Below are positions 4,467-48,908 of a stretch of 51,203 nucleotides of DNA, piece after piece. The first letter of the stretch is position 1. Each line of letters begins with the position of its first letter. The notes below the pieces were generated by a model. The model was not told the origin of the DNA and did no database searches. It was given only the letters and a program-made list of their open reading frames with translations. Both the position numbers and the translations under genes were made by a program. The stretch lies in assembly GCA_036389795.1 (NCBI GenBank), contig DASVWD010000007.1:1-51203 (forward strand), in the 5' to 3' direction. This DNA is from Longimicrobium sp. Lineage in GTDB: Bacteria; Gemmatimonadota; Gemmatimonadetes; Longimicrobiales; Longimicrobiaceae.

Positions 4467-4798
4467 CGGGACCTCCCGGCGGGGGTCCCGGAGCGGCGTC
4501 CGCGCGCCGCTTGTGCACTGTGTTTACTTAGTTTCGGCTTACACTCTACAGATTAAGGCCGATTTTTAAGCGTGGCAAGGGGCCTCCTCTCCACAAGTGC
4601 ACAGATATACAACGTAGACGCCCCGGCACCTTCCCGAAACCTGTTCTGCCGGTGGCCGGAATCGTTCGCCTGCAACGACTTGGCGGATTTTGCGCACCTC
4701 CGTGCGCGGCGGGCGGCTCAGGGCTGATCCGGCGCACGATCCGGGCGTGCTGCCCGTCCCGCAAGCCCCCCCGGACCAGGGTGGCGGAGCGGCACGAG
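4467..4798. other. Intergenic stretch without a gene
   Basis: Apart from the candidate promoter at 4550-4578, I see no conserved gene here. ORFs that cross it on both strands have the Arg/Pro/Gly-rich composition of shadow frames in GC-rich DNA. The right end runs into the first copy of the dispersed ~155-bp repeat. Confidence 0.5.
4550..4578 (-). promoter_or_regulatory. Candidate sigma70 promoter for the helix-turn-helix gene
   Basis: On the minus strand TTGCCA (4578-4573) is followed after exactly 17 bases by TAATCT (4555-4550), in the most AT-rich stretch of this gap. The start site would be near 4543, giving a leader of about 76 bases. The -35 matches consensus at five of six positions, the -10 at three of six. 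Confidence 0.45.
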
Positions 4799-4951
4799 CG
4801 TGAGGGATGCGCGCCCGACAGGGCCGGGACCGTGGCGGCCGGGCAGTTTCGGCCGACGCGGGCCCGGCGCCGTTGGGCACGGTGGTATCGTGCCCTACGG
4901 CGCGCGCAGCCCGGCCCGGAGCGCAGCGGAGGGACACGCCCAAAACTGCAG
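4799..4951 (+). repeat. Dispersed ~155-bp hairpin repeat, copy A (subfamily 1)
   Basis: Begins GCGTGAGGGATGCGCGCCCG and ends in GGGACACGCCC...CTGCAG. The core hairpin at 4867-4903 is GCGCCGT-T-GGGCACG, loop, CGTGCCC-T-ACGGCGC. A second small hairpin GCCC-GACA-GGGC lies near the left end. Related copies are at 11719-11873 (inverted), 19387-19539, 40735-40890 and 48755-48908 (inverted). Confidence 0.9.
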
Positions 4952-5028
4952 TGCGAAAGTGCCAAGTGCGAAAGTGCGAAAGTAACTGCAGTTCGATCAC
5001 TCTCGCACTCTCGCACTCTCGCACTTTG
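4951..5028. repeat. GTGCGAA/TTCGCAC tandem repeats at a gene end
   Basis: Forward units GTGCGAAA (4951-4982) face inverted units CTCGCACT (5000-5026) across a short spacer containing CTGCAGTT. The inverted block ends 3 bp from the stop codon of the lytic transglycosylase, where in the gene's sense direction it reads GTGCGAGA. Confidence 0.8.
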
Positions 5029-7561: not shown

Positions 7562-7975
7562 ATGTCTCCGGAAGGCGGACCCGTGCAGGCGACGACGTTC
7601 TCGGCGTTCGAAGAGCAGGCGCGCGGAGCGGTGCACTGGATGCAGCTCGCGGTGGAAGCCGCGGGGGCGCTGGTGATCGCGCTGGGGGTCGTCCTGGCCG
7701 CCGTCGCCTTCGTCCGCTCGCTGTCGGGAGGCGACGACCGGCGCGGCTACGCCCGCGTCCGGCTGACGCTGGCGCACTACCTGGCGCTCGCGCTCGAGTT
7801 TCTCCTGGCCGCCGACATCCTGGCGACCGCCATCTCTCCCACCTGGGACCAGATCGGCAAGCTGGCCGCGATCGCCGCCATCCGCACCGGCCTCAACTAC
7901 TTCCTGATGCGCGAGATGCGGGACGAGGGCAAGGAGGCCGTCCGCGGGCCGGGGGATGGGGGTGCTGCCGGTTGA
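7562..7975 (+). CDS. DUF1622-like small membrane protein
   Basis: A 137-residue inner-membrane protein with hydrophobic helices at about residues 25-50 (EAAGALVIALGVVLAAVAF) and 75-97 (LALALEFLLAADILATAI) and a weaker third near 105-120 (AAIRTGLNYFLMREM). The order of helix, RVRLTLAHYLALALEFLLA and RTGLNYFL matches the DUF1622 family, whose function is not known. The ATG at 7562 is chosen because it leaves a compact family-sized protein; upstream codons in the same frame are Arg/Pro-rich. It is divergent from the transglycosylase. Confidence 0.8.
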   Translation: MSPEGGPVQATTFSAFEEQARGAVHWMQLAVEAAGALVIALGVVLAAVAFVRSLSGGDDRRGYARVRLTLAHYLALALEFLLAADILATAISPTWDQIGKLAAIAAIRTGLNYFLMREMRDEGKEAVRGPGDGGAAG

Positions 7976-8041: not shown

Positions 8042-8248
8042 TCAATAAGCCGGGTCGGCGCACTCCGGGCAGGTGCGGTTGGGCAGGCACGTCGGCTTGC
8101 CGTACGCCGTGTAGCAGGTGCCCGCAGGCGTCGCGACGAGCCCGAGCATCTCGCGCCCGTGCACGGTTCCCCGCTCCGCTTCGTCCTCCCGCGTGGTGGG
8201 GAACGACTCGACGCGCAGGTGGTCGAGCTTCAGCCGCAGCTTTCTCAT
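8042..8248 (-). CDS. Candidate RiPP precursor peptide (pinensin-like leader, 4 Cys)
   Basis: A 68-residue peptide. The leader begins MRKLRLKLDHLRVESFPT and contains GTVHG near residues 27-31, the same pattern as the larger peptide gene upstream at 8351. The C-terminal 25 residues hold four Cys (TCYTAYGKPTC, RTCPEC) with Thr beside three of them. Leaders of the form KLxLxxDxLxVxSF are known from pinensin-type lanthipeptide precursors of Bacteroidota and related families. A GGAGAGG ribosome site lies nine bases before the ATG. No lanthionine synthetase, protease or transporter gene is seen in the window, so modification is unproven. It could instead be a secreted or disulfide-bonded small protein. 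Confidence 0.75.
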   Translation of the reverse strand: MRKLRLKLDHLRVESFPTTREDEAERGTVHGREMLGLVATPAGTCYTAYGKPTCLPNRTCPECADPAY

Positions 8249-8316
8249 GTTCGCCTCTCCGGGTTGAGTGGTGCTCCGTCCGGGCGGCCGAGCGCGGCCG
8301 CGGACGGGGGCAAGCG

Positions 8317-8343
8317 CGCGCGCCGGCGGGGAGCCGGCGCGCG
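8317..8343 (-). terminator. Intercistronic hairpin between the two peptide genes
   Basis: CGCGCGCCGGC (8317-8327) and GCCGGCGCGCG (8333-8343) form a perfect 11-bp GC stem with a 5-base loop, starting 7 bp after the upstream peptide gene. It may attenuate read-through into the second gene or protect the first message. Confidence 0.6.
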
Positions 8344-8350
8344 GGTCGGG

Positions 8351-8644
8351 TCAGCAGAGGTCGAGCTGGAGCGTCTGGCAGCACTCCGAGCCGCACGAGC
8401 CGCCGCAGCTGTTGGCGCAGGTGTACCCGCACGTGTTCACGGCCGCGTCGCACGTGTACTGGCACACCGAGGGCGAGCAGGCGCCCGTCTCCGTGTTGCA
8501 CTGGTTCTCGCCGCAGTAGCTCGGGCCCGACGGGCAGTACTGGATGCTGTCGTGACCGTGGACGGTCCCGCCCTCGCCCCCCCCGGGCGTCGCCTCGAAC
8601 GAGGCCACCTCCAGGTCGTCCACGTTCAGCCGCAGCTTCTTCAT
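8351..8644 (-). CDS. Candidate RiPP precursor peptide (pinensin-like leader, 13 Cys)
   Basis: A 97-residue peptide starting MKKLRLNVDDLEVASFEA, with GTVHGHDS near residues 28-35, then a core in which 13 of about 60 residues are Cys, many next to Thr or Ser (QYTC, GYTC, NSCGGSC). Leader and GTVHG motif are shared with the 68-residue peptide downstream, so the two are paralogues with diverged cores. A GGGAGG ribosome site sits six to eight bases before the ATG at 8644. Cys beside Ser/Thr fits thioether or disulfide cross-links. The enzymes that would act on it are not in this window, so they would have to work in trans from elsewhere in the genome. Confidence 0.8.
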   Translation of the reverse strand: MKKLRLNVDDLEVASFEATPGGGEGGTVHGHDSIQYCPSGPSYCGENQCNTETGACSPSVCQYTCDAAVNTCGYTCANSCGGSCGSECCQTLQLDLC

Positions 8645-8730
8645 CCGGCCCTCCCTGGTGCGGGTGGACGCCTCCGCGCACCGGACTCCGTGACATGGCC
8701 CGGCCACTTCGAAGGCGGTTGATTCCCATC

Positions 8731-8762
8731 ATGATATTTCGCCACTCCGACGCATCTGTCAA
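8731..8762 (-). promoter_or_regulatory. Candidate promoter of the peptide genes
   Basis: A perfect TTGACA (8762-8757) on the minus strand is followed 17 bases later by AAATAT (8739-8734) and 20 bases later by the better -10-like TATCAT (8736-8731). The region is clearly AT-richer than its surroundings and lies about 90 bp before the 97-residue peptide gene. Confidence 0.5.
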
Positions 8763-9270: not shown

Positions 9271-9531
9271 TGGTGCGTGGCGACAGGGGTTCGGCGGGGG
9301 CGCGAACAACCTATCACGACGAAAGCAAAATGAACAGAGTGGACCGGGCGTTTCGTTTTTCCACTCCCCTCCGCCGGTCTTTGCCGGGCCACACACTTTC
9401 GAGCGCGCCCGCCTCGATGGTCGCGCGCGGCGCCCCCACCCCTTGACGTAGCGCACGCGGCCGGAAAGGTTCACGAGAGAACTCCCCTCGCGGGACACCC
9501 CTCCCCTTGCTCCCTGTTTCAGGAGGTGCGT

Positions 9532-11637
9532 ATGGCGTCAGCGCCCAGCTTTACAACCGACCGGCTGCGCAACGTGGTGGTGGTGGGCCACGGCGGCAGC
9601 GGGAAGACCACGCTGATCGACGCCTGCTGCCACACCTCGGGCGCCACCCGCCGCCACGGCTCCAGCGCCGAGGGGACGGCGCTCACCATGTTCACCCCCG
9701 AGGAGATCTCGCACGGCATCTCCATGAACGCCTCGGTGGCGTACGCCACCTGGATGGACGCCAAGATCAACTTCATCGACACCCCCGGCTACCTGGACTT
9801 CCTGGGCGAGGCCAAGGCCGGCATCCGCGTGGCCGACGGCGCCCTGGTGTGCGTCTCGGGCCCCAGCGGCGTGGAGGTGGGCACCGACCGCGTGTGGGAG
9901 CTGGTGCAGGAGCGGCACCTGCCGTCGATCTTCTTCGTCACCATGATGGACCGGCAGAACGCCGACTTCGAGCGCGTCTACCAGGACGTCAAGGAGCACC
10001 TGACCCCCAAGGTGATCCCCGTGGAGGTGCCGATCGGCGCGGGCGAGGACTTCAAGGGCATCGTCGACCTCTTCGCCGACAGGGCCTACTTCTTCAAGGA
10101 CGGGCAGAGCGACGAGTACGACGAGCGCGACATCCCCCCCGAGCTCAAGCCCACCTGCGAGCGCTACTACAGCGAGCTGATCGAGACGATCGCCTCCACC
10201 GACGACACCCTGCTGGAGCACTACCTGGAGGGCGACACCATCACCCGCGAGGAGGCGATCCACGCCCTCAAGCAGGCCATGCTCCGCGGCGAGCTGTACC
10301 CGCTCTTCTGCGGCGTCCCCACCGCCGAGTGGGGGACCAAGGCGCTGCTCACGCGCATCGTGGAGCTGATGCCCTCGCCGCAGGAGCGCCCCGCCGAGGA
10401 GGCGCAGGGCCGCACCGGCAACGTGGTGGAGCTGCGCAACCTGAACAGCGACCCCTTCGCCGCGCTCGTCTTCAAGACCACCAGCGAGCCGCACGTGGGC
10501 GAGCTCACCTTCTTCCGCATCTTCGGCGGCAGCGTGAAGAACGGCGACGAGGTGACGAACGCCGGCCGCGACAAGGCCGAGAAGCTGGTGCACCTCTCCA
10601 TCGCGCAGGGGAAGGAGCGCCTGGAGGTCGACGAGCTGCGCGCGGGCGACATCGGCGTGGTGGCCAAGCTGCGCGACACGCACACCAACGACTCGCTCTC
10701 CGCGCCCGCCCACCCGCTGGTGCTGAAGGGGGTGGACTTCCCCGAGCCCGACATCGCGGTGGCGCTGGAGCCCGCCAAGCGCGGCGACGAGGACAAGCTC
10801 TCGGTGGGCCTGCACAAGCTGCACGAGGAAGACCCCTGCTTCGCCGCCGAGTACAACGCCGAGCTGGGGCAAACAATTGCGCGGGGGCTGGGCGAGCTGC
10901 ACCTGGACGTGCAGATCGAGCGGCTCAAGCGCAAGAACGGCGTGGAGGTGGTGGTCAAGCAGCCGCGCATCCCCTACCGCGAGACGATCAAGGCGGCCTC
11001 CGAGGGGCACGGCCGCCACAAGAAGCAGACGGGCGGGCGCGGCCAGTTCGGCGACGCGCACGTGCGGCTGAAGCCGCTGCCGCGCGGCGAGGGCTACCGG
11101 TTCACCGACGCCATCGTGGGCGGGGTGATCCCGGGCAAGTACGTCCCCGCGGTGGACAAGGGGGTGCAGGAGGCGGCGCAGCGCGGCATCCTGGCGGGGT
11201 ACCCCGTGGTGGACTTCGAGGCCGAGTGCTTCTTCGGCAGCTACCACTCGGTCGACAGCTCCGAGGCCGCGTTCAAGATGGCCGGCATCCTGGCGTTCCA
11301 GGCCGCGGCCGAGAAGGCGCAGCCGGCGATCCTGGAGCCGATCATGGAGGTGGAGGTGTTCACCCCCGACGAGTTCCTGGGCGACGTGATCGGCGACCTG
11401 AACCAGCGGCGGGGGCAGATCCTGGGGATGGACCAGGCGGGGCGCAACCAGAAGGTGCGCGCGCTGGTGCCGCAGGCCGAGCTGTACAAGTACAGCACCA
11501 CGCTGCGCTCGCTCACCCAGGGCCGGGCCACGCACACGCGCCGGTTCAGCAGCTACCAGGAAGTCCCCGCGCACGAGGTGCCCAAGGTGGTGGAGGCCGC
11601 CAAGAAGGAGCGCGAGGAGCTGGCGGCGGCGAAGTGA
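9532..11637 (+). CDS. Elongation factor G-like translational GTPase
   Basis: A 701-residue EF-G family GTPase with the usual five-domain length. The P-loop GHGGSGKT is near residues 19-26, the G3 motif DTPGYLDF near 83-90, and domains II-V follow. Two GTPase signatures are unusual: the switch-I segment is HGISMNAS where true EF-G has RGITI, and the base-recognition motif is TMMDRQNAD where EF-G has NKMD, so Asn and Lys are replaced while Asp remains. This suggests the EF-G-like (FusA2-type) paralogue rather than the housekeeping translocase, whose gene normally lies in the str operon with rpsL, rpsG and tuf; none of those is here. ATG 9532 is chosen over GTG 9526 because AGGAGG occupies 9521-9526. 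Confidence 0.88.
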   Translation: MASAPSFTTDRLRNVVVVGHGGSGKTTLIDACCHTSGATRRHGSSAEGTALTMFTPEEISHGISMNASVAYATWMDAKINFIDTPGYLDFLGEAKAGIRVADGALVCVSGPSGVEVGTDRVWELVQERHLPSIFFVTMMDRQNADFERVYQDVKEHLTPKVIPVEVPIGAGEDFKGIVDLFADRAYFFKDGQSDEYDERDIPPELKPTCERYYSELIETIASTDDTLLEHYLEGDTITREEAIHALKQAMLRGELYPLFCGVPTAEWGTKALLTRIVELMPSPQERPAEEAQGRTGNVVELRNLNSDPFAALVFKTTSEPHVGELTFFRIFGGSVKNGDEVTNAGRDKAEKLVHLSIAQGKERLEVDELRAGDIGVVAKLRDTHTNDSLSAPAHPLVLKGVDFPEPDIAVALEPAKRGDEDKLSVGLHKLHEEDPCFAAEYNAELGQTIARGLGELHLDVQIERLKRKNGVEVVVKQPRIPYRETIKAASEGHGRHKKQTGGRGQFGDAHVRLKPLPRGEGYRFTDAIVGGVIPGKYVPAVDKGVQEAAQRGILAGYPVVDFEAECFFGSYHSVDSSEAAFKMAGILAFQAAAEKAQPAILEPIMEVEVFTPDEFLGDVIGDLNQRRGQILGMDQAGRNQKVRALVPQAELYKYSTTLRSLTQGRATHTRRFSSYQEVPAHEVPKVVEAAKKEREELAAAK

Positions 11638-11698: not shown

Positions 11699-11718
11699 GG
11701 TCTCTTTCGCACTTCGCA

Positions 11719-11873
11719 CTGCAGTTCCGGGCATGTCCCTCCGCTGCGCTCCGGGCCGGGCTGCGCGCGCCGTAGGGCACGATACAACTGTGCCCAACGG
11801 CGCCGGGCCACGATCGCGCCAAACCCCACGGCGCGCCCGTGTCCCGGCCCTGTCGGGCGCGCATCCCTCACGC
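11719..11873 (-). repeat. Dispersed ~155-bp hairpin repeat, copy B (subfamily 1, inverted)
   Basis: The same element as at 4799-4951, in reverse orientation, with core hairpin at 11767-11803. Outer stem arms are GCGCCGT and ACGGCGC as in copies A and D; one inner stem base has changed. It directly abuts the inverted GTGCGAA units of the EF-G-like gene through a CTGCAG. Confidence 0.9.
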
Positions 11874-19386: not shown

Positions 19387-19539
19387 GCGTGAGGGATGCG
19401 CGCCCGGAGGGCCGGGACACGGGCGCACCGGGGGTTGGGCGCGAACGTGGCCCGGCGCGGTTGGGCACGGTCGTATCGTGCCCTACCGCGCGCGCAGCCC
19501 GGCCCGGAGCGCAGCGGAGGGACACGCCCGAACCCGCAG
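19387..19539 (+). repeat. Dispersed ~155-bp hairpin repeat, copy C (subfamily 2)
   Basis: Same element as copy A, but with core hairpin GCGCGGT-T-GGGCACG, loop, CGTGCCC-T-ACCGCGC at 19455-19491. The C-to-G change in the left arm is matched by G-to-C in the right arm relative to copies A, B and D. The small left hairpin also differs (GCCC-GGA-GGGC). It is followed by three GTTCGTC units instead of GTGCGAA. Confidence 0.9.
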
Positions 19540-19593
19540 TTCGTCGTTCGTCGTTCGCATGTGCCTGATCCCACCCGAGCGCGGAGGAGAGAC

Positions 19594-40734: not shown

Positions 40735-40890
40735 GCGTGAGGGATGCGCGCCCGACAGGGCCGGGACGCCGCCGCCACACGGGGTATCGTGGGGGCGGTG
40801 GCCCGGCGCCGTTGGGCACGGTCGTATCGTGCCCTACGGCGCGCGCAGCCCGGCCCGGAGCGCAGCGGAGGGACACGCCCGGAACTGCAG
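40735..40890 (+). repeat. Dispersed ~155-bp hairpin repeat, copy D (subfamily 1)
   Basis: Core hairpin at 40806-40842 with arms GCGCCGT and ACGGCGC, as in copies A and B. Small left hairpin GCCC-GACA-GGGC. Ends in CTGCAG at 40890, directly joined to GTGCGAA units. Confidence 0.9.
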
Positions 40891-40916
40891 TGCGAAGTGC
40901 GAGGTGCGAAGTGCGC
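40890..40916 (+). repeat. GTGCGAA-type tandem repeat next to copy D
   Basis: Four units (GTGCGAA, GTGCGAG, GTGCGAA, GTGCGCC) abut repeat copy D, about 70 bp before the LigD polymerase start. Confidence 0.75.
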
Positions 40917-48721: not shown

Positions 48722-48756
48722 TCACTTTCGCACTTTCGCACTTGGCACCTGGCACT
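48722..48756 (-). repeat. TTTCGCAC tandem repeat before the propeller gene
   Basis: Four units (CTTTCGCA, CTTTCGCA, CTTGGCA, CCTGGCA) lie directly upstream of the start codon on the 5' side, joining the gene to repeat copy E. Confidence 0.75.
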
Positions 48757-48908
48757 GCGGTTTTGGGCGTGTCCCTCCGCTGCGCTCCGGGCCGGGCTGC
48801 GCGCGCGGTAGGGCACGATACCACCGTGCCCAACCGCGCCGGGCCGCCGCCGCCACGAAACCCCCGTGGCGGCGCCGTCCCGGCCCTCCGGGCGCGCATC
48901 CCTCACGC
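48755..48908 (-). repeat. Dispersed ~155-bp hairpin repeat, copy E (subfamily 2, inverted)
   Basis: Core hairpin at 48803-48839 has arms GCGCGGT and ACCGCGC like copy C, and the small hairpin GCCC-TCC-GGGC (reverse of copy C). Orientation is opposite to copies A, C and D. Confidence 0.9.

Follow-up and report, generated by a model that had tools for sequence, protein, structure and literature searches.

The window, by which we mean the whole stretch of 51,203 nucleotides analysed, carries two short open reading frames on the minus strand that encode paralogous peptides. Precursor 1 (68 amino acids; 8042..8248, minus strand) combines a leader running from MRKLRLKLDHLRVESF to GTVHG with a 4-Cys core that contains TCPECA, and precursor 2 (97 amino acids; 8351..8644, minus strand) combines a leader running from MKKLRLNVDDLEVASF to GTVHG with a core of 66 residues, including 13 Cys, 8 Ser and 6 Thr. 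The leader segments correspond to positions 8156..8248 and 8555..8644 of the minus strand, the former with the recognition box LxLDxLxVESF and the GTVHG end motif. A local comparison of the two peptides gave a similarity score of 75, as against a mean of 28 and a maximum of 56 in 2000 shuffles, and the N-terminus common to both is thus far above chance. Good ribosome sites precede the pair (CCCGGAGAGGCGAAC-ATG and AGGGAGGGCCGG-ATG). In all these respects our results agree with a sequence-only reading of the locus, which had described two frames with 4 and 13 Cys, a shared leader and strong ribosome sites.

The pair is flanked on one side by a DUF1622 gene (7583-7975, plus strand), and on the upstream side by a small 61-amino-acid frame and an EF-G-like gene (9526-11637, plus strand). 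The GC hairpin that had been noticed between the precursor genes is real (8317..8343, minus strand; 11-bp stem 8317-8327/8333-8343), and the region, which includes a second stem, folds at -58.2 kcal/mol (z -3.1). We rejected the hairpin as a feature of the family, since only 23% of the gaps separating tandem precursors hold hairpins with z < -2. Likewise, the upstream TTGACA of the sequence-only reading is a perfect box (8762-8757, minus strand), but the AAATAT that follows after a 17-nt spacer matches just 3/6 positions of the -10 consensus, and TTGACA-17-AAATAT (8734..8762, minus strand) is a possible weak promoter of the pair. TTGACA was found upstream of 4/84 (4.8%) single or first-in-array precursors versus 2.0% in shuffles, and we therefore rejected it as a promoter motif shared by the family. 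A search for Rfam RNAs near the pair gave no match. Elsewhere in the window, an intergenic repeat of about 160-185 bp with 85-89% identity is dispersed at 4798-4957, 11713-11873, 19387-19543, 40735-40915 and 48724-48908; it recurs at more than a dozen further loci in the genome, some of which adjoin precursor arrays.

The leader family and its genome-wide repertoire

Precursor 1 passes the NCBIfam model NF038180 (leader_pinensin) with 25.7 bits against a cut-off of 24, in line with the proposal of a pinensin-like leader. Precursor 2 alone did not match NF038180, yet it is a clear paralogue of precursor 1 and is matched by the leader profile, in the search of its own genome, at E 3.5e-15; 41 of 60 sampled leaders matched NF038180. 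The consensus of the family is M[K/R]KLxLxLDxLxVESFxT, followed after 9-10 residues by GTVx[G/A], and the form common to the window pair is MxKLxLxLDxLxVxSFx[T]-9/10-GTVx[G/A]. With precursor 2 as the query, 96 places in the genome were retrieved at E <= 10, whereas the profile built from 60 leaders gave at least 148 matches at E <= 0.001, a figure that is a lower bound and, like all our counts, rests on fragmented assemblies. The leader search suggested by the sequence-only reading thus yielded many paralogues, and in the Longimicrobiaceae the leader was present in 10 of 21 genomes. From the leader-matched places of the genome we recovered 151 distinct precursors with hypervariable cores, 84 of which stand single or first in an array; the largest array seen consists of 13 precursors on contig C206. 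In one precursor (L141:2079-2366), the core is built of three exact repeats of VSGGGATQCGGVQTCGGGCQ, which suggests that several copies of a product may be obtained from one leader.

The site of the window pair is itself variable. At the syntenic position upstream of EF-G, one relative (G011) carries three precursors with TCPECA cores like that of precursor 1, a motif that recurs in other precursors too, whereas precursors are absent from this position in three others (G012, G014, G016), which indicates that the pair belongs to a repertoire shaped by gain and loss. Such a pattern, together with the occurrence of truncated copies and of copies without GTV, could also mean that many scattered copies, the window pair included, are decaying and unexpressed leftovers of a past expansion. 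However, the open reading frames are intact, and a ribosome site precedes 94.6% of the precursors as compared to 14.9% in a control interval. Furthermore, in the syntenic arrays of G011 and G012 the cores of 15 orthologue pairs are 78% identical and the leaders 66%, with pN/pS values for the cores of 0.15/0.30, showing that individual cores are kept. We therefore regard decay as an improbable explanation, and the same arrays led us to reject hyper-diversification as the only mode of core evolution. In comparisons with the genome of the window, leader and core identities were near equal (0.60/0.59 and 0.57/0.57).

Candidate maturation enzymes and their link to the leader

The observation that no modifying enzyme is encoded nearby is true of the neighborhood but not of the genome, which contains a single set of class I lanthipeptide enzymes, located on contig C225 and not on the window contig. 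It comprises the only PF04738 protein in the genome, the N-terminal part of a LanB (1077 amino acids), the only PF14028 protein, a separate SpaB_C elimination protein (350 amino acids), and an adjoining LANC_like protein (LanC, 681 amino acids); with the PF04738 and PF14028 parts on separate proteins, this is a split LanB. The best NCBIfam match of the LanC is TIGR03897 LanM. The zinc motifs of this LanC, WCHG and CHG, do not vary among seven homologues and can be aligned with those of LicM2 and LANCL1. Since contig C225 ends 335 bp after the LanC gene, adjacency to precursors cannot be seen in this genome. A listing of RiPP enzymes, also called for by the sequence-only reading, has thus turned up a candidate maturation system alongside the paralogues.

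The 13-precursor array on contig C206 adjoins genes for an ABC exporter without a C39 domain, an HlyD adaptor and a subtilase that resembles QhpE with a score below the cut-off of that family. Three C39 peptidase genes were also found, one of them in a class II-like cluster, but all lie away from the array-side exporter, and a C39 peptidase was therefore rejected as the leader protease.

The link between leader and enzymes is visible across genomes. In the family, PF04738 was found in 10 of 21 genomes and the leader in the same 10 (chance 2.8e-6, phylogeny ignored), and of 298 phylum genomes 8 carry the leader, all of which belong to the 15 with PF04738 (chance 4.6e-12, phylogeny ignored). The window pair lies outside any enzyme cluster, whereas peptides with the same leader adjoin the LanB set in eight relatives (G001, G007, G011, G012, G014, G017, G185, G187), and in G007, G011 and G017 they are placed between the LanC and the ABC exporter. 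The conserved operon in relatives consists of LanB, SpaB_C, LanC, precursors, ABC, HlyD and an S8 protease, and the C39-less exporter, HlyD and subtilase accompany precursors and enzymes in several of them. A CSA[IV]D.CP-type core is retained in the enzyme or exporter cluster of four species (L041:10733-10894, L095:5035-5196, L097:19810-19959, L106:3237-3613), unlike the variable cores elsewhere.

The paralogues, the C225 enzymes, the co-occurrence and the linkage in relatives all support the earlier suggestion of RiPP precursors modified in trans, and the window pair represents two of about 150 genes with one leader, scattered through the genome of this soil bacterium, whose products are very probably all matured into ring-bearing peptides by a single enzyme set encoded elsewhere. 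We also considered the possibility that the split LanB acts on these peptides but that the products are only dehydrated, or are heterocyclised or otherwise crosslinked as in thiopeptides, rather than mainly forming lanthionines. The elimination protein does exceed the cut-off of the thiopeptide-type model TIGR03891, and the solved structure nearest to the LanB is TbtB. However, the same operon in relatives also encodes a LanC whose zinc motifs are conserved, and no other modifying enzyme was identified among the annotated neighbors in these operons, which makes this scenario very unlikely in our view.

Core grammar and the proposed maturation pathway

The cores consist of 16% Cys and 20% Ser/Thr, with a median of 6 Cys and a range of 2-24. 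The 13 Cys of precursor 2, described as unusually dense, are so for lanthipeptides generally but are ordinary here, where 24 of 150 cores have at least 13. The high Cys content, and the exporter, HlyD and subtilase next to the largest array, could fit disulfide-rich, Cys-knot-like secreted peptides left unmodified by LanB and LanC, in which the leader would do no more than direct export and cleavage. Against this, the leader tracks LanB exactly, and precursors are located between the LanC and the exporter in relatives. Furthermore, Ser/Thr rises with Cys across cores (rho 0.87 for counts and 0.38 for densities), and 140/150 of them contain at least as many Ser plus Thr as Cys. An undescribed Cys-knot-like family, the second suggestion of the sequence-only reading, is for these reasons disfavored and appears quite unlikely.

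Relative to Cys, Ser/Thr residues are enriched at positions -1 (z 27) and -5 (z 23) and under-represented at -2 and -3, and 49% of the Cys in the cores are directly preceded by Ser/Thr. The motif [ST]C..[ST]C is present in 70/150 cores, as compared to 6.8 expected from shuffles, and this repeat explains the -5 enrichment in large part, since Ser/Thr at -5 falls to 27% versus 20% expected when there is no Cys at -4. We count the core grammar as a whole in favor of lanthipeptide precursors; however, other spacings are commoner in lanthionines than Ser/Thr at -1 or -5 of Cys, and both this pattern and the depletion at -2/-3 speak against lanthionine formation. Peptides with the leader that consist of C-[S/T]-x units in tandem, with 17 and 15 Cys (L092:7824-8096, L098:11999-12310), are encoded next to a divergent LanB in G012 and G014.

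Taken as a whole, we consider it highly likely that the window peptides are orphan class I precursors of the pinensin type, modified in trans and belonging to a repertoire of about 150 members with one leader and one maturation set. In the pathway we propose, the leader box LxLDxLxVESF would recruit the split dehydratase (the C225 LanB N part and the SpaB_C protein) and the LanM-like LanC, after which Ser/Thr residues of the core would be dehydrated and Cys residues would add to them, forming (methyl)lanthionine rings. The product would then be exported by the C39-less ABC exporter and its HlyD adaptor, and the C206 subtilase, which adjoins the exporter, would remove the leader, probably after GTVx[G/A]. 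Cores with up to 24 Cys, some with CCCC, may be beyond what one LanC can close into rings, and some Cys may be disulfide-bonded or free.

The LanC may take part in leader recruitment through an RRE-like domain of its own. For its C-terminal extension of 240 amino acids, a low-confidence model based on two sequences (pLDDT 66.5 overall, 75-92 per ten-residue block in residues 171-230) predicts a beta-hairpin/three-helix domain at the end. The best Foldseek match of the model was the RiPP partner TglI of the TglHI complex (E 9e-4), the similarity to a lasso B1 RRE was weak (TMt 0.68 but E 0.63), and the match to the PqqD Pfam model was below the cut-off (E 0.014). With the caution that such a two-sequence, low-confidence model demands, the predicted fold may resemble these RiPP recognition elements, but is here fused to a lanthionine cyclase. 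The leader box of the precursor family is LxLD, which has been listed among the variants of the recognition motif FxLD (PMC12710340).

A bolder hypothesis, to which we give somewhat less than an even chance, is that one class I set with a cyclase-fused recognition domain matures a scattered library of at least 150 ring-chain peptides, in which [S/T]Cxx[S/T]C repeats give rise to undescribed chains whose rings overlap or are reversed, with up to 24 Cys, each core being selected for its own target.

Comparison with known lanthipeptide systems

The closest known relatives are the class I pinensins of Chitinophaga pinensis, which share the leader family NF038180, the split LanB and the LanM-related LanC, as judged from the family model and the literature. 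Pinensins are made with a split LanB, and the class I LanCs that go with this family of precursors show a relationship to the LanC domains of LanM enzymes (PMC7268733), so that the enzyme set on C225 also fits the pinensin type. Unlike the pinensins, the system described here has about 150 dispersed precursors per genome, cores with up to 24 Cys and a predicted RRE-like tail on the LanC, and it occurs in the Gemmatimonadota.

In its organization, the system resembles the prochlorosins and SyncA peptides, where one promiscuous enzyme (ProcM, SyncM) likewise acts on numerous dispersed precursors that combine one leader with diverse cores. However, those systems rely on a class II LanM and Nif11-type leaders, whereas the leader studied here associates with a class I split LanB and LanC. 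At most 79 substrates per strain have been reported for SyncM (PMC9872173), and the 148 or more precursors identified here amount to roughly twice this number, the largest per-strain repertoire that we found reported. What is new is therefore the scale and the organization, that is, about 150 precursors versus 79, class I chemistry, genome-wide scatter and a predicted RRE-bearing cyclase, and not the kind of system, which is already known. Our literature search, with subscription journals outside its scope, found no description of this repertoire of about 150 precursors. To our knowledge, there is no earlier repertoire of such a kind for class I chemistry or for the Gemmatimonadota.

If our interpretation is correct, this would be the largest known lanthipeptide substrate set of any one enzyme system. 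Standard mining that relies on gene clusters would overlook almost the entire set, since the precursors are encoded far from the enzymes. The system would also provide a natural experiment in which one cyclase handles from 2 to 24 Cys, and would offer peptide engineers a LanB/LanC pair that tolerates diverse substrates. The purpose of such a repertoire is a directly testable question.

Other lanthipeptide systems are present in the same genome. A separate cluster on contig C28 (L059) encodes two LanM-like LanC-domain proteins of about 1,020-1,095 amino acids, an exporter with a C39 domain and several small peptides whose LEQVAGG-type leader is different from the pinensin-type leader. On contig C285 (L060:7895-11593), genes for a LanC, a HopA1-fold protein and an LxmK-like protein are located side by side, corresponding to a class V-like lanthipeptide set.
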